Shown: one piece after another, positions 8,034 through 42,401 of the stretch
How positions within the stretch are numbered: the first letter of the stretch is position 1
How the letters are laid out: every line of letters begins with the position of its first letter
Origin: Jannaschia seohaensis
GTDB taxonomy: Bacteria > Pseudomonadota > Alphaproteobacteria > Rhodobacterales > Rhodobacteraceae
DNA length: 64,000 nt
NCBI RefSeq assembly: GCF_900116765.1
Contig: NZ_UETC01000003.1
Location: 1 to 64,000, forward strand
Reading direction: 5' to 3'
Translations under genes and position numbers: made by a program
Notes under the pieces: generated by a model
Seen by the model: the letters and a program-made list of their open reading frames with translations, nothing else
What the model was told of the DNA's origin: nothing
The model's database searches: none

Positions 8034-8564
8034 ATGGCGCACATCTCTGGGAAGCTGACGAAGGCGCTGGTGCGTTCGCTCGGGCCGGGGCGGCATTCCG
8101 ACGGGAACGGGCTGTATCTTGTGGTCGATCCGTCCGGGGCGCGGCGCTGGGTCGTGCGGGCGACGATCAAGGGACAGAAGAACCGCGCGGGCAAGCCGCT
8201 CAGGACCGATTTCGGGCTCGGCGGCGCGGATCTGGTGATGATCAACGAGGCACGGGCGCGCGCGCTTGAGTATCGGCGGCTTGCGCGATCCGGGCTGCAT
8301 CCGAAGCATCACGGCGCAAAGGACATCCCAAGCTTCGAGGAGATCGCCAGGCAGGTGTATGTCGAGCGCCTTCCGACCTGGAAGAACCCCAAGCATGGAC
8401 AACAATGGATCAACACGCTGGCCGAGTATGCCTTTCCGAAAATCGGGCGGTTGCCCGTCGACGCCATCGGTCAACCGGAGGTTCTAGCTGTCCTTTCGCC
8501 GATCTAGACCGACAAGACCGAGACAGCGCGGCGTGTGGCACAAAGGATCGGCACCGTGCTCGAT
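8034..8564 (+). pseudogene. Tyrosine-recombinase integrase, N-terminal part with a nonsense codon
   Basis: From ATG 8034 (GAGG just upstream) the frame reads like the N-terminal arm and core-binding domains of P4-type phage/island integrases: KLTKALVRSLGPGRHSDGNG, LYLVVDPSGARRWVVRA, then PSFEEIARQVYVERLPTWKN. A TAG at 8505-8507 interrupts it, but the same frame continues in family-like sequence (TDKTETARRVAQRIGTVLD) to about 8564, where TGG (Trp) would be expected at the stop. Similarity then ends. The catalytic domain with the R-H-R-Y residues is missing, so the protein cannot recombine. Confidence 0.8.
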
Positions 8565-9290
8565 GTACCGCCTGCCAGGAGGGGTCTGCTCGGCGCGACA
8601 GCGCATCGTCTCGACGTCAGCAAGCCTAATCAGCACGACACGAAGGCGGAGTTTCTCGCCGAGAAAGTCGCCGTCGAGGCCGCCGCGGAGCATGGGCGCG
8701 CGTTGTTCGAAATACTCGCCGGGCAGTTCAGAGAGGGAAGCGATCAAAGAGGCGTATCGGAACGCCTCAGTGATTTCATCGACGCTAGCGAGAACCAGGG
8801 CGGACTGACCAGACGGCCAGACACACCAGTCGATTTGGTGTTGCAGAACGCCAAGGCCGTCGGATTCACTTTCACGCTCGTGCTTGCACTGTATCACGTG
8901 CCTGGCTCTAGTCGAGCGAAAGCAAGAGCTTGCAAGTCAGGAGGCGACCTTCTGGAGCCAAAGGCACCAGCTCCGAACCACTATGCCCGAGCAATCGCCT
9001 TGCGCCTTGCGAAGCTGATCGCGCGGCATACCGGAGAGCGCCCTACGCTGGGCACATCGAGCGAGAGCAATCATCCGTCGACCGATTGCGGCCGCGCCGT
9101 CGAGGACCTCTTCAAGGTTCTCGGGATCAAGGCTCAATTTCGGAACGCAGCGAAATGGGCTATCGACCAGTTGACGGACGAGGACCTTGCGCCGGAGGAG
9201 CCGATTGGCTCTCTGCTCGGTACAAGAGATAACCTCGGATTTTCGACGGGGCGCCCGATCCAAAGATTTAGATTATCGAAGCCCTGCTGA
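8565..9290 (+). other. Open stretch after the integrase stump, unrecognised, possibly decayed island cargo
   Basis: The frame that carries the integrase tail stays open to 9290. Its last third (about 8925-9240: RLAKLIARHTGERPTLGTSS, then LFKVLGIKAQFRNAAKWAID) reads like a short helical protein of the sort found in integrated elements, but I cannot name a family. The middle part looks like frame-shadow sequence. I would not treat it as one gene; at most a C-terminal fragment of an island protein survives. Confidence 0.3.
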
Positions 9291-9368
9291 AAGGTCGCGA
9301 AAAATGGACCTTTCGGGCACCCGACACTCGGCCCCGCTCGCTGCTCAACACACCGAAATCATTCGCGT

Positions 9369-9834
9369 CTAAAGCGTCGGATCATAATTCTGGAGCATAG
9401 CCTGCGTGTCGGAGGTAGTTGCGGCATTCGTTTGGGGTGAAGGTGCGGCAGATCGTGCCGATGGTATCCGAGGCGTCGTCGATCGTCCTGGCATCGATCC
9501 GCCGGAGATGAGCTTTGAGCTTGGCGAAGGCCATCTCGATAGGGTGAGGGCGACCGTGGCCCCAGTGGGGCCGCGAAAGCGCCCGAACGGTCGGGGGAGT
9601 AGGCAGGCAGGAAGAGGAACCAGCATCCGGCGCGGCGCAGGGCTTCGGCAGCGGGGGCGACCTTGTGGGTGGAGGGTTTGTCGAGGATCACGACCGTGCC
9701 TGGCGCGAGGACGGGGGCGAGTTGCGTCTCGACCCAGTCGGTGAAGAGCGCGCCGTTCATCGCGCCTTCGATCGGCCAGGGCGCGATGATCGCGGCGGCG
9801 GTCAGACCGGCCACGAAGGTCTGGGTGCGCACGC
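9369..9834 (-). pseudogene. IS630-family transposase, C-terminal DDE part with an internal insertion
   Basis: On the minus strand from about 9832, TFVAGLTAAAIIAPWPIEGA then MNGALFTDWVETQLAPVLAP and the block leading to FLPAYSPD match IS630-family transposases (Tc1/mariner-like DDE). After YSPD about 40 extra bases interrupt the frame; the family sequence resumes as PIEMAFAKLKAHLRRIDART and ends NECRNYLRHAGYA in another frame. The N-terminal helix-turn-helix half is absent: similarity starts exactly where the DUF3883 fragment on the other strand ends. Inactive. Confidence 0.8.
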
Positions 9835-10004
9835 CCTTCTACATCAGCCGCAACGAGTTGGCCGTGGCCGAGGAGCGACGGTCGGAATGGCGTCTGTTCC
9901 GCCTGTGGAATTTCTCCCGAGAGCCGAAGGCGTTCGAACTGCACCCACCGCTCCATGCCCACGTTTCACTGACCGCGACCACGTTTCAGGCGAGCTTTCA
10001 CTGA
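9834..10004 (+). pseudogene. C-terminal fragment of a DUF3883-domain protein
   Basis: Bases 9834-10004 encode TPFYISRNELAVAEERRSEW then RLFRLWNFSREPKAFEL and end at a proper stop. This is the usual C-terminus of DUF3883 domains (FYVSRNE, SEE, W.LYR...R.PR.F). These domains are common in large helicase- or ATPase-linked proteins of restriction and defence islands. Everything upstream is gone, replaced by the IS630 remnant, so only about 57 residues persist. Bases 10005-10282 hold no gene I recognise. Confidence 0.65.
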
Positions 10005-10282
10005 GGGTCAGTCGAACACCCGTTCCGGCTGTTCGCGCCATGGCAGGGCCGCGAGATCGGTCAGTTTCAACAGGGTCACGGCGGGCAGTCGCCCTTGCCG
10101 AGTGGCGTGGTCTCTGCGCGGCATAAGGGGCAGTATCGCTGTCCAAACGGAGACTGGTTCGAATTAGTCTGCCAGCACCAGAAATCGCGCATCATTTTCA
10201 ATCAATTTCACATTATGCCTTACGCAAGGTTGGCAAACTTCGTTAACTGCTGTCACGGCTCGTTTCTGGTTTGGAGGGTGCG

Positions 10283-12712
10283 ATGTCTGAAGTTGATCCG
10301 AGCGCGGACCTTGTCGCGCCTGGCGAAAACAGTAGCGTCCTCGCGAGTCGAGAGATCAGGCTGCAAGACCTGAGCCGCGCCGAGAAGGCCGCGTATCGCG
10401 GTTTCGCGGAAGCCGTCGCAGAGGCGGGCGGGTTCGAACTCAGCCGCTCCCTGATCGGCAAACTCGTCGATGGCGAGGTCGGCAAGAAGCTCCTGCCTAT
10501 CGGCCAAAAACTCCTGCCGCTCTGGTCGGGCGAGAGCAGTGCCACATACGATCCTGCCGATACCGGAATGGTGAGCGTCAGCCTGATCGGCGAGCGCGGT
10601 CAGATGCAGGCGATGCGAAAGGCGCTGTCGGATCTCGGCATCGCGGAGACGGGCAGTGTCAACAACGCGGTTGATGTGCTTGTCGCCATCGAGGACCTGC
10701 CGAAGCTTCTGACGGTGCCCGGCCTGCGCGACGCCACGCCCAACCTCTCGATGACCAATGCCGGCGCCGTCCTGTCCCAGGGCGCCGAGTCGATGGGAAC
10801 GGACGACTTCAACGCCAAATATCGCGTCGATGGCTCGGGCGTGAAGATCGGGGTCCTTTCGGATTCCTTCGACACCGCCCGCGACAACACCGCCAATCCG
10901 CCGCTGACCACCTATGCCGATGACATCGCCACCGGCGACCTGCCGGCTGGTGTTACCATCCTTCAGGATTTCCCCTTCGGATCGGACGAAGGCCGCGCCA
11001 TGGCGCAGTTGATCTACGATGTCGCGCCGGGGGTCACGTTCTCCTACCACACGGCCTTCGGTGGCGAAGCCACCTTCGCCGGCGGCATCGACGCGCTCGT
11101 GGCCGATGGGGCTGACATCATCGTCGACGACGTGTTCTACGCGATCGATCCTGTCTATCTCGACGGCATCATCTCTCAGGCGGTGGACAACGCCTTCGCC
11201 GCGGGCCGCCAGTATTACTCCTCGGCCGGCAACGGCGCCGTCCAGGCTTTCGCGCAAGACTTCAACCCAGATCCTTTCAACGCCCTGTTCAACGGCGATC
11301 TTTACGAAAGCGTTCACGACTTTAACCCCGATCCAACTTCCACGGATCAAATTCGACAGTTCTTTCTACCCAATGGGGGAACGCTGCGGATCTTTCTGCA
11401 GTGGGCGGACGCCTTCACGAATGCTGATGTCGGCGCCCCTGTCACGGAGACCGATCTCGACATCTTCGTTCTCAATTCCAGCCTAGCCGTCGTGGGTGGC
11501 AGCAATGCCGTCAACACCTCGTCGCCTTTCGAGTTCGTGCAATTCACGAACACGACCGGCTTGGATGCCGTTTTCGGTCTGGCCATTTTCAAGTATTCCG
11601 ACAGCAGCCCGGATACGGAGCGCTTCTTCATCCGCGACTTCGGATCCACCATCGACATCTCCAATCCGAACTTCTTCGAAGCGCCGAACGGAACCGGCGC
11701 CAGCTACGGCCATTCCGGGGCCGAGGGGGGGCTCGGCGTCGGCGCGTCGGCGTATTTCAACACGCCGAATTTCAACAACACCCTCACCGAGGCGGTGCTG
11801 AACGGCTTCTCCTCCGCCGGGGGGGAGCCGATCCTGCGCGACATCGACGGGACGCCGCTCGCGGCGAACGAGCAGACCCGCCAACGCGTCGATATCGTCG
11901 GGCCGGACGGCACCGACACGACCTTCTTCGGCAGCGACGTTGAGCCGAATGGTTTCCCCAACTTCTTCGGCACCTCCGCCGCCGCGCCCCATGTCGCCGC
12001 GGTCGGGGCGCTCTTGCTGGAGGCCGTGCCCAATGCCACGCCGCAGGAGGTCTATGACGCGCTGCGTGCTTCCGCTTTCGGCATGGACAACCCCTTCATC
12101 GCCGCCGACGATGGGAAACTGGCCCTCGTCGACGAGGCGACGGGCCACGGCTTCGTCAACCCGGATGGGGCGCTGCGCCTGCTCGCGAACGTCGTGGAAG
12201 GCGATACGGGGCGCAATCGGCTGGAAGCGACGGGCACGGCGGACGACGTGAACATCCTTCTCGGTCAGTCCGGCAACGACGTGCTGGTCGGTGCCGCGGG
12301 CATCGATCGCCTCTTCGGCGGCGACGACGACGACCGCCTGCAAGGTAAGGCGAGCGACGATGTCCTCTTCGGGGGTGCCGGCAACGACCTTTTGGTCGGC
12401 GGCCGCGGCGCGGACTGGCTGGAAGGCGATGCCGGCTCCGACACGATGTTCGGCGGCGCGGATGCCGACAGCTTCGTGATCAGTTCCGCCATCGGCCGCG
12501 ACAGGATCGCAGATTTCGAGCAGGGCGTGGATCTGATCGTGCTGACCACGGAGTTCCTCGCCCTGGGCGCGGCGACCTATGATGCGATCCTCGGCGGCAC
12601 GAATATCCGGCTGGATGGCGACGTGGTGGCACAGGTGGCTGGCGTATCCCTGGTCGCGACCGATTTCGTCGACGAAACCGGAGCATCGATTTTCGGTCTG
12701 GGTTTGGTATGA
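10283..12712 (+). CDS. Secreted S53-like (sedolisin-type) serine peptidase with RTX repeats
   Basis: 809 residues from ATG 10283, which has GGAGG five bases upstream; a TTG four codons earlier lacks this spacing. The peptidase domain (about 170-620) has KIGVLSDSF (D194), DEGRAMAQLI (E236) and FFGTSAAAPHVAAV (S575). The position that holds His in subtilisins is Glu, as in the Ser-Glu-Asp triad of S53-like peptidases found in S8/S53 superfamily proteins. Residues about 655-745 contain RTX nonapeptides (GGDDDDRLQG, GGAGNDLLVGGRGADWLEG), predicting calcium binding and export by a type I system. No signal peptide and no cysteine were seen. No ABC/MFP exporter is in the window. Confidence 0.85.
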   Translation: MSEVDPSADLVAPGENSSVLASREIRLQDLSRAEKAAYRGFAEAVAEAGGFELSRSLIGKLVDGEVGKKLLPIGQKLLPLWSGESSATYDPADTGMVSVSLIGERGQMQAMRKALSDLGIAETGSVNNAVDVLVAIEDLPKLLTVPGLRDATPNLSMTNAGAVLSQGAESMGTDDFNAKYRVDGSGVKIGVLSDSFDTARDNTANPPLTTYADDIATGDLPAGVTILQDFPFGSDEGRAMAQLIYDVAPGVTFSYHTAFGGEATFAGGIDALVADGADIIVDDVFYAIDPVYLDGIISQAVDNAFAAGRQYYSSAGNGAVQAFAQDFNPDPFNALFNGDLYESVHDFNPDPTSTDQIRQFFLPNGGTLRIFLQWADAFTNADVGAPVTETDLDIFVLNSSLAVVGGSNAVNTSSPFEFVQFTNTTGLDAVFGLAIFKYSDSSPDTERFFIRDFGSTIDISNPNFFEAPNGTGASYGHSGAEGGLGVGASAYFNTPNFNNTLTEAVLNGFSSAGGEPILRDIDGTPLAANEQTRQRVDIVGPDGTDTTFFGSDVEPNGFPNFFGTSAAAPHVAAVGALLLEAVPNATPQEVYDALRASAFGMDNPFIAADDGKLALVDEATGHGFVNPDGALRLLANVVEGDTGRNRLEATGTADDVNILLGQSGNDVLVGAAGIDRLFGGDDDDRLQGKASDDVLFGGAGNDLLVGGRGADWLEGDAGSDTMFGGADADSFVISSAIGRDRIADFEQGVDLIVLTTEFLALGAATYDAILGGTNIRLDGDVVAQVAGVSLVATDFVDETGASIFGLGLV

Positions 12713-32575: not shown

Positions 32576-33856
32576 TTACCGGTAGATCATCGTCGGCAGC
32601 CAAAGCGTGATGGCCGGCACGTAGGTGATCAGGAGCAGCACCAGAACCAGCGGCACCAGGAAGGGCGCGGTGCCCACGACGGCCCGCTCGAACGGTATCT
32701 TGGCTATTCGCGCGAGCACATAGAGCACCATGCCCACGGGCGGCGTAAGCAAACCGAGCATCAGGTTCAGCACCATGATCACGCCGAAATGGACCGGATC
32801 GACGCCGATGGCGGTGGCGACCGGCAACAGGACGGGCACCATGATCGTGATCGCAGCCACGGTCTCCATGAAACAGCCGACCACGAGCAGGATGATGTTG
32901 ATCAGCAGCAGGATGACCCAAGGCCGCTCTGATGCCGACAGAAGAAGCCCTGCCACGATTTCCGGGACCCGGTTCGAGGTGAGGATCCAGGCGAAGATGG
33001 AAGCCGCTCCCACGACCAGCAGGACAACGGCCGTCGTTTCGATAGTGTCATAGCTGACCCTCAGGAAACGGCGCCAGTTGAGCGTCCGATAGATGACAAG
33101 CCCCAGGAAAATGGCCCATGCGCAGGCGGCCACGGCAGCCTCGGTCGGGGTGAAGGCGCCGCTCAGGATGCCACCGACGATGATCACCGGCGTCATCAGC
33201 GACAGGAAGGCCCGGCCGAAGGTCTTGTAGAGCACCGAAAACTGGAACGCCTGGTCGCGCGGGTACCCCCTACGGCGCGCCATAATCGCCACCATGGCCA
33301 TGAGCGCGAGCGCCATCACCAGCCCGGGGATGAAGCCGGCGGCGAAAAGCTGGCCGATCGACGCGCTGGCCACGACGCCGTAGATCACCATGGGCAGCGA
33401 TGGCGGGATGATCGGCCCAATGGTCGAGGACGCGGCGGTGATGCCGACAGCGAATTCGGGATCGTATTTCGCATCCTTCATGGCCTTGATCTCAATGGCG
33501 CCGAGACCGCCGGCATCGGCGACCGCCGCGCCGGACATGCCGGCGAAGATGACTGAGGCGCCGACATTCACATGGCCAAGCCCGCCGCGCATCCAGCCCA
33601 CGATGGACAGGGCGAAATTGAAGATCCGCTCGGTGATCCCGGCAGTGTTCATCAGGTTGCCTGCTAGGATGAAGAAGGGCACGGCCAGCAGCGGAAAGCT
33701 GTCGACGCCGTTGATCATGCGGTGCGCGACGATCATCGACGGCACCGAGCCGCTGACGAGCACGTAGAGTGCCGAAGATCCGGCCAGCGCAATGGCGATC
33801 GGCACACCGAAAAGGATGAGCCCGAACAGGGCCACGAAGAGAAGGGCGATTTCCAA
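32576..33856 (-). CDS. dctM: TRAP transporter large permease (DctM family)
   Basis: 426 residues if translation starts at the TTG at 33856, which is preceded by AGGAGA at the right distance; this gives exactly the usual family start (LEIALLFVALFG). A longer frame to 33910 adds a basic tail lying inside dctQ. Family blocks: SFPLLAVPFFILAGNLMNTA, FAGMSGAAVADAGGLGAIEI, SSTIGPIIPPSLPMVIYGV, GLLTPPVGMVLYV. About 12 membrane segments. Last gene of a minus-strand operon: GntR-Ldh_2 fusion, dctP, dctQ, dctM. Confidence 0.9.
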   Translation of the reverse strand: MEIALLFVALFGLILFGVPIAIALAGSSALYVLVSGSVPSMIVAHRMINGVDSFPLLAVPFFILAGNLMNTAGITERIFNFALSIVGWMRGGLGHVNVGASVIFAGMSGAAVADAGGLGAIEIKAMKDAKYDPEFAVGITAASSTIGPIIPPSLPMVIYGVVASASIGQLFAAGFIPGLVMALALMAMVAIMARRRGYPRDQAFQFSVLYKTFGRAFLSLMTPVIIVGGILSGAFTPTEAAVAACAWAIFLGLVIYRTLNWRRFLRVSYDTIETTAVVLLVVGAASIFAWILTSNRVPEIVAGLLLSASERPWVILLLINIILLVVGCFMETVAAITIMVPVLLPVATAIGVDPVHFGVIMVLNLMLGLLTPPVGMVLYVLARIAKIPFERAVVGTAPFLVPLVLVLLLITYVPAITLWLPTMIYR

Positions 33857-33866
33857 CTTGGGTCTC

Positions 33867-34445
33867 CTAGTCCGTGCGTGGCACGCCCTGGGCGTGGAGT
33901 TGCGGATCAATCAGCTTGGAGGTTCCGGTACGCAGGTGGCGCCATGCGTTAACCAAGGCGTAGACGGTCATGCCCCCAAAACAAAGGGCGACGAACCAGT
34001 AGACGTAGGATTTGGGCACATCGATCGAGACCATCATCTGTTGCGTGCGGCCGGCAAGGCGGATCGTCAGGACGGTGAGAAATCCGAAAAAGGCGATGGT
34101 GACGGCATCGATGCCTGCCTGCGCGATGCGGCGCCCGGTGCGGGGTATCCAGCGGTAGAGAAACTCCACCGCGATGTGGGACTCCTTGCGGACGGCCATG
34201 ATCGCGCCCGTGAAAGTCACGGCAATCAGCAGGAACCGGGCAATTTCCTCTGTCCAGCCAAGGGAGTCGTTCAGAACGTAGCGGGTAAAGAACTGAAGGA
34301 AGACGACGAAGGCCAGGATCCAGAAGATCACAAAGACCGGCACATCGTCCCATTTCAGGTCCGACAGGTCGATCTCTTGCTCATCGAAGTGAATTTCAGG
34401 AGCTTCGGTGGGAGCGGAGACCCGCTCTTCCGGTCCGTCTGTCAT
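33867..34445 (-). CDS. dctQ: TRAP transporter small permease (DctQ family)
   Basis: 192 residues. An acidic N-terminal tail of about 35 residues precedes four membrane segments (VPVFVIFWILAFVVFLQFF; the region FLLIAVTFTGAIMAV; AVTIAFFGFLTVLTIRLA; YVYWFVALCFGGMTVYALV). GWTEEIARFLLI is the common DctQ motif. It lies 80 bases after dctP, with a strong hairpin between, and ten bases before the dctM start. Confidence 0.88.
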   Translation of the reverse strand: MTDGPEERVSAPTEAPEIHFDEQEIDLSDLKWDDVPVFVIFWILAFVVFLQFFTRYVLNDSLGWTEEIARFLLIAVTFTGAIMAVRKESHIAVEFLYRWIPRTGRRIAQAGIDAVTIAFFGFLTVLTIRLAGRTQQMMVSIDVPKSYVYWFVALCFGGMTVYALVNAWRHLRTGTSKLIDPQLHAQGVPRTD

Positions 34446-34525: not shown

Positions 34526-35515
34526 TTACTGGCCGATGGCCTGCAGCCGATCGTAGGTCTCCTGGTCCCAGGTCGCCATGTCACCGTTATGCATGACCTT
34601 GACGGCTTCGATGAACGGGCCGCGGTCGATCTCGTTCACCTGCACGCCCTCGTCACGGAACCACTGCGCCAGCGCGTTCTCGGACTCGCGGATCGCGTCC
34701 GTCGCACAGACCGCCGTGTCCTGCAGGATGCCGGACAGCGTTTCCTGGTCCGCCGCGTCCATGCTGCCCCAGGTCGGTCCGCCGACGATGGTCAGCAGGG
34801 CGTCCGTGATGTGACCCGTCAGATTGATGTTGGTCTGGACCTCGTAGAACTTCTTGGCCTGGATCGTCGGCAGCGGGTTTTCCTGCGCATCCACGGTGCC
34901 CTGCTGCAGCGCAAGGTAGACCTCGGCGAAGGCGATCGGCGTGGGGTTCGCATCGACGGCCATGGGGAACATCATGTAGAGCGGCGCGTTCGGAACGCGG
35001 ATTTTCAGACCTTCCATGTCCCCCGGCGCCGTGATCGGCTTGTTCGAGGTGACATGGCGGTTACCGTAGTAGGTCATCGCCACGATGTGGTTGCCGGTGG
35101 CGTCGGTATAGCCTTGCGACAGCTCGCCAAAGAGATCGGAGTTCCGGAACGCGTCCCAATGCGCGTAATCGCGGAACATGTAGGGGGCGCCGCCGATGGC
35201 GATCGGCCCGTAGGCCCGGCCCGCGAACAGCTGACCCGTATAGATGATGTCGACGGTGCCAAGGCCCAGGCCTTCGTTGATGTCGACCTCCTTGCCCAGC
35301 GACGATGCCGGGAAGACCTCGATGCCGTAGCGGTTTCCGGTCGCCTCCATCAGGGCGTCATTCGCCGCGACGGCGCAGGTGTGATAGGGCTCGCTCGTCT
35401 CGTAGACATGCGCGAACTTCAGCACGCGGTCGGCCTCTTGAGCCGTTGCGGTGGACGCAAGCGCAATCGCCCCCGCCGCCGCCAGTATGGTCGTTTGCTT
35501 AAAGGTAGACGTCAT
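34526..35515 (-). CDS. dctP: TRAP transporter substrate-binding protein (DctP family)
   Basis: 329 residues with a signal peptide (MTSTFKQTTILAAAGAIALA, cleavage after TATA). DctP features: LKFAHVYETSEPYH, the GLKIRVPNAPLYMMF segment carrying the conserved arginine, and YLALQQGTVDAQENPLPTI. The ligand should be an organic acid, perhaps a hydroxy- or imino-acid given the Ldh_2 domain encoded just upstream. It starts 26 bases after the fusion gene and is followed by the 34483-34510 hairpin. Confidence 0.92.
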   Translation of the reverse strand: MTSTFKQTTILAAAGAIALASTATAQEADRVLKFAHVYETSEPYHTCAVAANDALMEATGNRYGIEVFPASSLGKEVDINEGLGLGTVDIIYTGQLFAGRAYGPIAIGGAPYMFRDYAHWDAFRNSDLFGELSQGYTDATGNHIVAMTYYGNRHVTSNKPITAPGDMEGLKIRVPNAPLYMMFPMAVDANPTPIAFAEVYLALQQGTVDAQENPLPTIQAKKFYEVQTNINLTGHITDALLTIVGGPTWGSMDAADQETLSGILQDTAVCATDAIRESENALAQWFRDEGVQVNEIDRGPFIEAVKVMHNGDMATWDQETYDRLQAIGQ

Positions 35516-35541: not shown

Positions 35542-37305
35542 TCAGCCGTCCGCAGACAGAACCTGCAGGGCCTCGATGCTGTTCCTCCTGGCGAATTCAC
35601 CAAGCGACACCAGCGTCGTTTCGTCCAGTTTGAGACCGATCACGCGCCGCGACTCGGCCTCTTTCCACTCCCGGTCGCCGGGGGCCATGACCTGCTGATC
35701 GGCGGCGACGGCCGACTGGCGGATCGCCTTGAGATAACGGGTCATCACGGCTCGAAAGGCGGCCGCGCCGGAAAAGGCGGCCGGATCCAGGACCAGGACA
35801 AAGGCGCCCAGCCCCCGTGGGGTCGACATGTCGTCCGACACCATCGGCGGGAGCTCGGCGCTGAGCGGCGCGTCCGAAAACGCCGAAGATAGCACCTCTG
35901 ACAACCCGGCCAGACCGGCGCCCTTATATCCGAACAGCGCCCCGCCGAGGGGGGCCAGCATCTCGGCCGCCGCGGGATCGGTCACGTTCATCCCGTGCGT
36001 ATCCGAGGCGACGTTTTCGGGCAGCGGGATGCCGATGCTCTGGCTCAGCAGGACCCGGTTGTAGGGTATGGAGCTGGTCGCCATGTCCAGCAGCCAGGGC
36101 GGGCCGTCCTCGGCCGGGGCGGCGGCGGCGATCGGGTTGGTGCCGTGGAATCTCTCTGCTCCGCCGTGCAGGCGCACAAAAGCGTCGGAGTTGCAGAAGG
36201 TGAGCCCCATCAGGCCCTGCCTGGCGATTTCCGTCGCATAGGCTCCGGCGGCTCCGAAATGCGACGAGCCCCGGATGGCGACGGCTCCGATGCCGAACTC
36301 CCTCGCCTTGTCGATCGCGATCTCGACCGCCTGATACGTCGCCAGGGCGCCATGCGCATTGTCGGCGTCGAGGACGCAGGCGGCGCCCGTTCCTCCGGCG
36401 ACACGCGGGCTGGGACGCCGGTTGATCCGTCCCCCGGCCAGGGCCCGCAAGTAGTGCGGCAACAGACGGAATCCGTGCGTATCGACCCCCAGCGTGGAGG
36501 CATGCATCAGCGCCCTGGTCACGGCGTCGACGGTGGCCGTATCTGCCCCGACTGCGGCGAGGGCCGCCCGCGAGAACCTCTCCATCTCGGCCAGCGCGAT
36601 GCGCACCGTCGGCAACGCGCTGGCCTCGCCGTGATCCGAATCTGCAACCCGGTTCAGGTAGTTGGTGGTGGTCTCGGAAATATGGTTCTTCAGCAGTGCC
36701 AGCGCGCGGTCGAACTCACCGGACAGCACCATGTCGCAGATGCGCCGGTGTTCCTGCAGCGATCGCGCGTTCAGCTTGGGGTCCAGGGACAGCCGGTTGC
36801 GCAGGGCTTGAACCCGGAAGGACAGCATCCGGAAGTTCGCTTCGACATAGCTGTTGCCGCAGTGCTCGAAGATCGCCCTGTGAAAATCGTGGTCCAACAG
36901 CTTGTAGGTATCACTGTCGTCCAGGGCCAGGGCCTGCTCCATCCGGCCGACGATGTCGCTCAAGTCCCTGGCCAGCGGGCCGGGGTTGCGGCTGCATGCA
37001 AGGCGCATCGCCTCGCTTTCGAGGATCAGGCGCAGCTCTCCAAGCTCGGCGATTTCCGAAGCTCCCATCGAGAACACCCGCGTTGTCCTGTTGGCGGACA
37101 AGACGATCAGGCCCTCGCGCTCAAGCTGGAGGAGGGCCTCACGGATCGGGCTCTTGCTGACGCCCAGAAGCCGGACAAGCCCGGACTCGGTGAGCTTTTC
37201 GCCCATCGGGAACTCGCCCGAGATGATCCGGCTGCGGATCGCTTCGCGGGCCTGTTCCGACAGTTTCAGCCGTTCGATCGGTTGCGGATTCGCCGATATT
37301 TCCAA
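35542..37305 (-). CDS. GntR/FCD transcription factor fused to an Ldh_2-family dehydrogenase
   Basis: 587 residues in one uninterrupted frame. Residues 14-80 form a GntR winged helix (AREAIRSRIISGEFPMGEKL; LLGVSKSPIREALLQLEREG). Residues about 85-215 are an FCD ligand domain with the metal-type residues DHDFH (138-142), EHRRI (185-189) and KNHI (206-209). After a short linker, residues about 231-570 are a malate/L-lactate/ureidoglycolate-type Ldh_2 enzyme: GVDTHGFRLLPHYL (273-286) and GSSHFGAAGAY carry the expected catalytic and NAD-site residues, with RFHGTNPIAAA, LLDMATSS and GYKGAGLAGL after them. Both families normally occur as separate proteins of about 225 and 340 residues. It heads the TRAP operon and may both sense and oxidise the imported acid. 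Confidence 0.85.
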   Translation of the reverse strand: MEISANPQPIERLKLSEQAREAIRSRIISGEFPMGEKLTESGLVRLLGVSKSPIREALLQLEREGLIVLSANRTTRVFSMGASEIAELGELRLILESEAMRLACSRNPGPLARDLSDIVGRMEQALALDDSDTYKLLDHDFHRAIFEHCGNSYVEANFRMLSFRVQALRNRLSLDPKLNARSLQEHRRICDMVLSGEFDRALALLKNHISETTTNYLNRVADSDHGEASALPTVRIALAEMERFSRAALAAVGADTATVDAVTRALMHASTLGVDTHGFRLLPHYLRALAGGRINRRPSPRVAGGTGAACVLDADNAHGALATYQAVEIAIDKAREFGIGAVAIRGSSHFGAAGAYATEIARQGLMGLTFCNSDAFVRLHGGAERFHGTNPIAAAAPAEDGPPWLLDMATSSIPYNRVLLSQSIGIPLPENVASDTHGMNVTDPAAAEMLAPLGGALFGYKGAGLAGLSEVLSSAFSDAPLSAELPPMVSDDMSTPRGLGAFVLVLDPAAFSGAAAFRAVMTRYLKAIRQSAVAADQQVMAPGDREWKEAESRRVIGLKLDETTLVSLGEFARRNSIEALQVLSADG

Positions 37306-37679
37306 ACTGTCGCCCCCTTCCCGAGGCCGGATGGTATATAATGTATCATCAGACGCAAGCGTTCTGTTTTTCTTCGTTTCAAAAACCTGGACTCGCGCGC
37401 GGCGGGCGGGTTTGACCTGTAAAAAATATGATGAAAATCAGATGCCTGATGGCCTTTTCCGGTTCGAGACGCCGCGTCGCCAGTTGGGGGCACCAGCGTC
37501 CGGCGGGCCGGTATGGCGCCGGCGCCCCTGCATGCCTGACCCCGTGTGACCGGCGGACGGGCGTCCCGGACCCGCCGCCGGATTCTCGTTGCCCGGAAGG
37601 TTCTTTTGCTCTGACCCATTTCGCCGCGGTGTCGATTTTTCAGGGCGCGTTGACGATGGTGTATGCGCGTGACCCCAGA
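37306..37679. other. Upstream region of the fusion gene, no gene seen
   Basis: The first 100 bases are AT-rich (GTATATAATGTATCATCAGA near 37333), the composition expected of a promoter/operator for the GntR-headed operon. TGATACATTATATA reads as a -10-like stretch on the minus strand, and ATGTATCAT is a near-palindrome typical of GntR/FadR half-sites. Beyond that the sequence is unassigned and runs into IS5 debris. Confidence 0.4.
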
Positions 37680-40176: not shown

Positions 40177-40580
40177 GGATGGCAACGTGATCACCGGGGG
40201 CGCGAACGGATCGGCGACCTGGGCGGCTCGGTTGTCTGGGGCAAGCGGGGACGATGGACGACGACTGGCTGGAACGGAGCGGGTCAGACCGCACGGCTTC
40301 CCCGTAGCCGTCATCGGGTGGCATCGCACAGTCACCAGGGCGCCGGGGCCGCCAAGCTCGGACGGGTCGACTGACGCAACAACCGCCGCTTCCGCGCGTA
40401 GTCGGCGACCTCCGTTCCGCCGAGGTCAAGGAGCGCTGCCTCGCCGAACTGCGACCCAAGACATGGCCGGCGCAGGCTCAACGCAACCCTGCGCCGTGAC
40501 GTCGGGACGTCTCAAGACTGCATGGCCATTCGGGTAAGGAAATTATTTGGCTTTGTCGGTCGATGCTTTAACGATTGCAT

Positions 40581-42401
40581 ATGGGAGGCATCGAGCGTGA
40601 TAAATCCGTGAGGGCGGCGCCTGGTCCTCTGGGGGATGCTGACGACACGGAACATACGGACCGCGACCTGCTCATCGCTGCGATCTACGAGGCTGCGGCG
40701 GACCCGAGCGCCTATAGCCGCTTCGTGGCGGCGTTGAGCGCGTATCTCGAACAGACGGCAGTCAGGGAATGGCGGATCCGAGATCTGGCCGAGGTCGATA
40801 TCGAGGCTTTCGAGGCCGATCGCGGTCTCGCAATGCATCTCGCCAACCTCAACGACAAGCTGACCGATGCGCCACACCGCATCCCCCCTGGTAGCCTGCG
40901 AGAGCATGTCGCCCGCCGGTCGGGCCTGGCCGTTCTGGTCGACCGGGCAGGGCATATCGCCAGCCTCAGTGCGACGGCGCAAGAGACTTTCGAGAGCGGT
41001 CCGCATGCCTTGGAAGACCTCGCGACGCGCTTGCATGCCGAGGATTCCCGCCACTTGCGCGACGCGATTGCCGGGCATGTCATGCATGGGCGCCACCTCG
41101 CGCCCCGTATCCTGCGCGGCGAGGCGTTTCATCTCTGCGTCAGGACACAGCGATGCGACACCGATGGCGAGGTCTTCCTCTGCCTCGAAACACTGGCCGT
41201 CGACTGGTCGCCTGCGCTGGAGGCGGTTCTCCGGGCGTCTTTCTCCCTCACGCCCGCCGAACTGCGTGTCGCGCGGATGCTCGCCGCAGGCGAGACCGCC
41301 AAGTCGATCGCGGCCGGGCTGGACCGATCCGAAGGCACCGTTCGCAATCAGATCAAGTCGATCCTTGCCAAAACCGACACCGGCGGCATCGCCAACCTCA
41401 ACAGGCTTCTGGCCCTGATAGCCGAAACGGTCGCCGGGGCTCCCATTCTGACCGCGCCGGGGCAGACGGCACTTGCCGATCTCGACATCCTGACACTGCC
41501 CGACGGCCGCGCCATGGAGGTGCGCCTGCAAGGTCCGGTCGACGGAAGACCGGTCTTGTTCCTCCACGGCATGCTCTTTGGAAGTGAACTGCCACCCTCC
41601 GCCATCGAGCCCCTGGAGAGAAATCACCTGCGGCTGATCGCGCCCGCGCGTCCGAATTTCGGCATGTCCGACCCGTCGCCCGGCAGACCCGAGGATGAGC
41701 CGGACCGCCTCGTCGCGGACCTGCTGTTCCTGCTCGACGCCTATGGCGTGGACAGGACGGTCTGCCTGACCAACATCGCCGGCTCGCCCTATGGCTATGC
41801 CTTAGCGGCTGCCGCCCCCGAGCGGATTTCGGGGCTGGTTCATGCCGCCTCCGTCCTGCCGGTGCTGAAGGCGCGGCAATTCGTGACCATGCCGCCGACC
41901 CAGCGCCTGATCGCCTTTTTGATGCGCTTCGTGCCGGCCTATCTGCCGCCGCTGATGAAATCGGGCATCGCGCAGATCCGCGCGTCGGGCGAGATCCCGT
42001 TCCTTGCCACGCTTTACGAAGAAGGCACCTGCGACCATGCCGTCGCGACCCGCCCCGACCTGGTCGACCTGATGACGCGAAGTGTTCATTTCGCTACGGG
42101 GCAGGGCTATCTGGGCTGCTATACTGACACGCTCCACGTCGTGCGCGACTGGTCGCACTACGCGACGGCCATCAGTGACAGGGGCATACCCATAATCCAT
42201 GTCCACGGCCACGCCGACCCGCAATATCCCCTCGACGACGTCGCGCGGTTCGCCGCGCGGTTCCCCTCGGTCGAACTGCGCGGGGTCGAGGGGGCCGGGC
42301 AGCTCCTGCTCTTCGACAGGCCCGGCCCGGTGATCGGCGCGGTTGCCGAGCTGCTGCACCGGGCCCAGGGCGCCGGTCGACCGGTGCCGCCAGCCGTATA
42401 G
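40581..42401 (+). CDS. LuxR-type HTH protein fused to an alpha/beta-hydrolase-like domain
   Basis: 606 residues from ATG 40581 (a TTG two codons earlier is possible). Residues about 30-210 form a PAS-like N-terminal region. Residues about 222-280 are a LuxR helix-turn-helix (LTPAELRVARMLAAGETAKS, LDRSEGTVRNQIKSILAKT). Residues about 300-600 look like an alpha/beta hydrolase (PVLFLHGMLFG; ADLLFLLDAYGVDRTV; HVHGHADPQYPLDDVARFA). The nucleophile elbow is AGSPYG rather than GxSxG, and the place of the catalytic His reads GAGQLLLFDRP, with Gln. So it is probably a ligand-sensing regulator rather than an esterase. Unlike most LuxR proteins the DNA-binding domain is internal. Orphan; rhodanese gene follows. 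Confidence 0.82.
   Translation: MGGIERDKSVRAAPGPLGDADDTEHTDRDLLIAAIYEAAADPSAYSRFVAALSAYLEQTAVREWRIRDLAEVDIEAFEADRGLAMHLANLNDKLTDAPHRIPPGSLREHVARRSGLAVLVDRAGHIASLSATAQETFESGPHALEDLATRLHAEDSRHLRDAIAGHVMHGRHLAPRILRGEAFHLCVRTQRCDTDGEVFLCLETLAVDWSPALEAVLRASFSLTPAELRVARMLAAGETAKSIAAGLDRSEGTVRNQIKSILAKTDTGGIANLNRLLALIAETVAGAPILTAPGQTALADLDILTLPDGRAMEVRLQGPVDGRPVLFLHGMLFGSELPPSAIEPLERNHLRLIAPARPNFGMSDPSPGRPEDEPDRLVADLLFLLDAYGVDRTVCLTNIAGSPYGYALAAAAPERISGLVHAASVLPVLKARQFVTMPPTQRLIAFLMRFVPAYLPPLMKSGIAQIRASGEIPFLATLYEEGTCDHAVATRPDLVDLMTRSVHFATGQGYLGCYTDTLHVVRDWSHYATAISDRGIPIIHVHGHADPQYPLDDVARFAARFPSVELRGVEGAGQLLLFDRPGPVIGAVAELLHRAQGAGRPVPPAV

Follow-up and report, generated by a model that had tools for sequence, protein, structure and literature searches.

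Here, a gene is identified that joins a GntR-type winged helix, an FCD ligand domain and a complete Ldh_2 dehydrogenase in one polypeptide chain, and that stands at the head of an operon for a TRAP transporter. The reading favoured here, at somewhat better than even probability, is that the product is one bifunctional protein, an autorepressor and at the same time a dehydrogenase for the acid that the transporter imports. The gene lies in a stretch of 64,000 nucleotides, analysed at its full length and referred to as the window, where the relevant features are:

35542..37305, minus strand: GntR-FCD-Ldh_2 fusion gene, an uninterrupted ORF of 587 codons with a TTG start
37075..37263, minus strand: GntR winged helix, residues 15-77 (Pfam PF00392, 53.9 bits)
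36676..37047, minus strand: FCD ligand domain, residues 87-210 (Pfam PF07729, 85.2 bits)
36604..36654, minus strand: variable linker, residues ~218-234, with 0-53% pairwise identity among nine fusions and a model pLDDT <50 at residues 222-233
35605..36597, minus strand: Ldh_2 dehydrogenase domain, residues 237-567 (Pfam PF02615, 305.8 bits)
37313..37322, minus strand: putative purine-rich ribosome-binding site, inferred from the sequence
37332..37348, minus strand: 17-bp palindrome TGATACATTATATACCA, a putative operator, found in 8/9 fused loci and 0/6 split loci
34526..35515, minus strand: dctP, TRAP solute-binding protein (Pfam PF03480)
33867..34445, minus strand: dctQ, TRAP small membrane subunit (Pfam PF04290)
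32576..33910, minus strand: dctM, TRAP large membrane subunit (Pfam PF06808); homologues place its true start probably at ~33856

All three domains of the fusion score above their curated Pfam cut-offs, and the Ldh_2 domain is complete, covering positions 2-331 of the 333 in its model. A preliminary description of this DNA had reported the 587-residue frame uniting the three domains, the motifs GVDTHGFR and SSHFG, and a same-strand TRAP operon headed by the fusion; the frame and its Pfam matches, both motifs in the translation, and a complete downstream set of dctP, dctQ and dctM were all recovered. At the fused loci the operon consists of the fusion and the TRAP transporter only. The same description had allowed that a hidden stop or frameshift might have produced the fusion, but residues 215-235 contain neither, and nine distinct genomes run uninterrupted and in frame across the junction, which excludes a sequencing or assembly artefact as its source. 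A separate Ldh_2 product could also be imagined from an internal start, since all nine fusions share a conserved ATG at codon 241, directly preceded by AGGAG in two of them (L035 and G044). In those two, however, the motif abuts the ATG, and the other seven have no ribosome-site-like motif before codon 241, so this candidate was rejected; artefact and internal start together are given a negligible probability.

The fusion is rare in the genomes sampled. A short-peptide-pattern scan of the species-genome collection returned eight loci, three of which, in two Maritimibacter MAGs and in Salipiger mucosus, encode the whole fusion with 73-78% identity. Sampling by rank scored no more than the best three candidates of each genome and applied strict E-value limits, so that all counts are lower bounds; it gave a full-length fusion in at least 5 of the 394 family genomes (G000, which is the window's own, G171, G333, G207 and G044) and at least 5 of 390 genomes of the order (G000, G647, G171, G333 and G207). 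Among the best-scored candidates of 385 class-sample and 398 phylum-sample genomes, none beyond the window's own genome was fused. Neither was the fusion found in 19 other genomes of the genus, and none of 25 matching plasmid records covered 80% of the fusion query. In total there are nine distinct fused genomes, the window's own included, and in every one the fusion is followed by dctP, dctQ and dctM. The eight further genomes answer the earlier concern that homologues might always be split into two genes, yet the relatives of the Ldh_2 part are in most cases indeed separate genes, and within these samples the architecture deserves the word unusual that was first applied to it. A literature search, at abstract level and with few subscription journals, found no report of GntR, FCD and Ldh_2 in combination.

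The enzyme part retains most of what a working dehydrogenase of this family would be expected to have. Residues were mapped by alignment with AllD, with roles as described in the accessible parts of PMC3527362. The equivalents of AllD His44, Tyr52, His116, Ser140, Asp141, Thr156, Pro158, Asp174, Lys224, Met251 and Arg259, eleven residues in all, are invariant in 9/9 fusions; in the numbering of the fusion, H277 and H349 (the catalytic-candidate histidines), T389, P391, D407 and K461 are kept throughout. The equivalent of Ser43 is Thr in eight fusions and Ser in one. Arg48, reported as essential in AllD (PMC3527362), is Leu in all nine, which implies that the substrate differs from that of AllD and leaves activity not assured. 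The Ldh_2 part is thus probably active as an enzyme, on a substrate other than AllD's. Identity with the ureidoglycolate dehydrogenase AllD itself was rejected on the Arg48 replacement and on an equivalog score of 167.5 against a cut-off of 496.2, and the Ldh_2 part missed the cut-off of every NCBIfam equivalog model.

The loss of Arg48 also lends something to an alternative in which the Ldh_2 part is a sensor rather than a working enzyme, binding substrate and/or NAD(H) and modulating DNA binding by the head; there is a precedent in the MocR regulators, described in the sources available as a GntR head joined to an aminotransferase-like sensory domain. This is considered unlikely, as the eleven other mapped residues, both candidate histidines among them, are invariant in 9/9 fusions, the FCD domain already provides a sensor, and the relatives are Ldh_2 genes of the ordinary, separate kind; of the 39 close unfused ones (>=300 bits), 20 have a TRAP gene nearby. 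GntR-like matches also occur near 20 of 39 unfused Ldh_2 genes, and these are not counted as support because such genes are very common.

The palindrome goes with the fusion. In eight of the nine fused loci its centre lies 29-35 bp upstream of the start codon, and in each of the eight its score, from a matrix built without the tested locus and, where named, without its nearest relative, is above all 300 shuffles of the same upstream region; in G333 the same place was chosen on the opposite strand. The approximate consensus of the eight sites is TGRYAYATNATATAMCA. As the palindromes are related by descent, their conservation does not amount to eight independent facts. Within 260 bp upstream of dctP in the split loci the best match, scored with no shuffle control, reached 11-12 of 17 letters in 6/6, and a palindrome there was discounted. 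The exact pattern occurs once in the window's genome, at 37332-37348, and the only other site within two mismatches sits on a different contig; a wider regulon was rejected on this count, and control confined to the fusion operon would be the simplest interpretation. The region 37306-37420, put forward earlier for a gel shift, includes the conserved palindrome. Some features fit less well with a canonical operator and promoter: the spacing given for the FadR subfamily in PMC4494728, with GT and AC 2-3 nt apart, is not that of the predicted site, and scanning for promoters with strict settings gave no sigma-70-like site. The direct repeats TGGTATAW of NanR, as described in PMC4494728, do resemble the half-site of the palindrome. 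Terminator-like sites were at chance level (4 against 3.1).

The single fusion without an upstream palindrome, in G207 (L082, 8983-10788), where 97 of 300 shuffles scored equally well, is also the only one of the nine with an altered recognition helix, S50, K51, S52 and P53 all being replaced. Judged from its sequence, this locus may have either lost its regulation or gained a new operator. G207 keeps the fusion despite both changes, which would suit a protein that is an enzyme only, its GntR-FCD head a remnant. This is considered very improbable, since approximate dN/dS values from three pairs indicate strong constraint on the winged helix (0.04-0.12, against 0.16-0.35 for FCD and 0.13-0.22 for Ldh_2), the palindrome is kept in 8/9, and the putative FCD metal residues D138, H142, H186 and H208 are invariant in 9/9. 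The spacing of these residues equals that of the sites in PMC7797058 and PMC4746285, as far as these are described there; Atu1419 has a zinc site of Asn and three His (PMC7797058), and three-His FCD metal sites are discussed in PMC4746285. The FCD of the fusion is thus putatively a metal-containing domain. Pairwise identity among the nine fusions is 62-84% in Ldh_2, 34-81% in FCD and 41-97% in the winged helix, and the much more variable linker lies between these conserved domains. A structure model from the nine-row alignment is of moderate quality (pLDDT 69.0, pTM 0.57); it resembles known Ldh_2 and FCD structures, while the relative arrangement of its domains is unreliable.

Taken together, these observations allow the construction of a model for the operon. 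As a dimer or larger oligomer, the fusion would use its GntR head to bind the palindrome that lies shortly before its start codon and, while bound, would repress the four genes for itself, DctP, DctQ and DctM. The inducer would be an acid, most probably a sugar acid, taken up through the TRAP transporter; it would bind the putatively metal-containing FCD domain and the head would leave the DNA, after which the attached Ldh_2 domain would oxidise (or reduce) the acid with NAD(P)(H), the FCD ligand presumably being the Ldh_2 substrate or linked to it. A single chain fixes the ratio of regulator to enzyme, and induction would yield the very enzyme that removes the inducer, making a self-resetting switch. 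It is plausible, as was suggested at the outset, that the fusion binds or oxidises the acid brought in by the transporter.

The head and the enzyme might instead answer to different molecules, FCD sensing for example a pathway product and Ldh_2 acting on another compound, so that joining them couples expression only. The results give no sign of one shared ligand, and the winged helix, FCD and Ldh_2 diverge at unequal rates; the operon, however, adds only a transporter to the fusion, which makes the imported acid the simplest signal for both parts, and separate ligands are rated as rather improbable. Counted in favour of the autorepressor-dehydrogenase were the nine fusions in one clade, each with dctP, dctQ and dctM behind it, the invariant residues, the palindrome, the changed recognition helix of the one fusion that lacks it, dN/dS values of 0.04-0.35 and the attachment of two Ldh_2 lineages to a single transporter clade; counted against it were the replacement of Arg48 by Leu, the non-FadR spacing, the lack of a sigma-70-like site in the scan, the exceptions G207 and L126, and the kinship of the palindromes. 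A bolder version of the autorepressor-dehydrogenase, offered only tentatively, is a switch made of a single chain: a repressor equipped with a ligand domain would be attached to the enzyme that breaks down its inducer, and occupancy of the operator, sensing and removal of the inducer would be coupled in one oligomer; the wide half-site spacing may then reflect a geometry imposed by the enzyme.

The fusion is likely to have arisen once. An Ldh_2 tree was built from 56 sequences after removal of duplicate loci and of matches of <90 bits or <250 residues; it still has long branches, and its outgroup does not form a single clade. A branch supported at 100/99 separates the nine fused sequences from all others, and this single clade makes one origin likely. 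The transporters of the fused loci cluster with those of six dctP-dctQ-dctM-ldh2 loci (L084-L089; support 99/99 for DctM and 98/99 for DctP), in which Ldh_2 is a separate gene at the tail of the operon. Five of the six fetched stretches for these loci gave no match to a GntR gene, and in L085 one lies ~5 kb away on the opposite strand. A single lineage for the fused and tail-gene Ldh_2 was rejected (AU p 0.007, after 14 of the 56 rows, far or long-branched, had been dropped). Two Ldh_2 lineages have thus been joined to one transporter group, which argues that the enzyme acts on the imported compound. The tree of DctM supports the fused group at 88/95, with two of the fused rows in an unresolved fork, and places L092/L093 in the clade at the end of a long branch, possibly falsely. 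The transporter group also includes L126-L129, with neither Ldh_2 nor GntR in the fetched stretches. One of these, the dctPQM set of L126 (G308, 8200-11150), falls in both trees among the transporters of the fused loci and has no fusion within the fetched 20 kb; here the fusion has perhaps been lost. The window's genome contains a second related TRAP system (L137, G000:C23:100001-120000), its DctM 65% identical.

Relatives in which the same functions are encoded by separate genes give a lead to the substrate. L144-L147, from another class of the same phylum and probably gammaproteobacteria, have a related transporter (DctM 643-653 bits) and carry dctP, dctQ, dctM, ldh2 and gntR as separate neighbours in 4/4; the same parts stand as ldh2-gntR-dctPQM in L092 and L093, from one genus of the window's family. 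In three of the four (L144, L145 and L147) a DUF1537-type kinase precedes dctP with a PdxA-like gene beyond it, and on the other side of L144, L146 and L147 are a galactarate/altronate-type dehydratase, a fumarylacetoacetate-hydrolase-type enzyme and a short-chain dehydrogenase. Only L144 was run against Pfam and NCBIfam, the other three being judged by near-identical protein starts; its nearest NCBIfam names are D-threonate kinase (157 bits, below the cut-off of 450) and D-threonate 4-phosphate dehydrogenase (324 bits, below the cut-off of 583). The four are clusters of sugar-acid type in which the genes for TRAP, Ldh_2 and a GntR-FCD protein lie side by side. No such kinase or PdxA-like gene, as a threonate-type acid-sugar operon would have, was seen among the called neighbours of the window's operon, and a PF07005 gene elsewhere in 12/12 genomes searched, the window's own included, had no matched control and is not counted as evidence. 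The DctP of the window is nearest in sequence to 4pc9 (163.8 bits) and to sialic-acid binders; the literature search found no paper on the ligands of the structures 4pc9/4pcd. On these gene contexts the imported acid is likely to be a sugar acid, possibly a four-carbon one, and the cyclic imino acids named among the first candidate ligands find no support.

Enzyme-fused regulators show how metabolic enzymes turn into switches, and the fusion, its split relatives with the same transporter and the fusion-linked palindrome make a small natural test of what an organism gains when sensor and enzyme are joined. A second enzyme-fused regulator lies ~3 kb away in the window, where a 608-residue ORF (40575-42401, plus strand) combines a LuxR-type helix-turn-helix (GerE, 31.1 bits) with an alpha/beta hydrolase (46 bits).

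By its winged helix followed by FCD (PF00392, PF07729) the fusion belongs with the GntR-FCD regulators. As these are described in the sources available, VanR Atu1419, CitO, LldR and NanR share with it both domains, the metal spacing of three His plus Asp/Asn and a palindrome near the gene start, but they have no enzyme domain and their palindromes are spaced differently. The fold and most of the cofactor and catalytic residues are common to the fusion and to the Agrobacterium tumefaciens protein 1z2i (399 bits), AllD, sulfolactate dehydrogenase, DpkA and YiaK, all of which, unlike the fusion, are stand-alone enzymes. L084-L089, L092/L093 and L144-L147 bring the same kinds of part together at one locus but unfused, and L084-L089 do so without an adjacent gntR or the palindrome. 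In PutA of proline use, a single chain is at once a DNA-binding protein and the enzyme for a step in the pathway under its control, although its DNA-binding and enzyme families differ from those of the fusion. The MocR group (e.g. GabR and EnuR) already offers GntR regulators that carry an enzyme-like domain; there, in the accounts available, an aminotransferase-like domain serves as the sensor, and the union of a GntR winged helix with an enzyme-type fold is common to that group and the fusion. Membership of that group was rejected, as the fusion has no Pfam match to the PLP aminotransferase fold and its C-terminal part is Ldh_2. MocR proteins lack FCD and sense through the PLP aminotransferase fold, whereas in the fusion a separate sensor domain coexists with an apparently complete dehydrogenase whose catalytic residues are kept.
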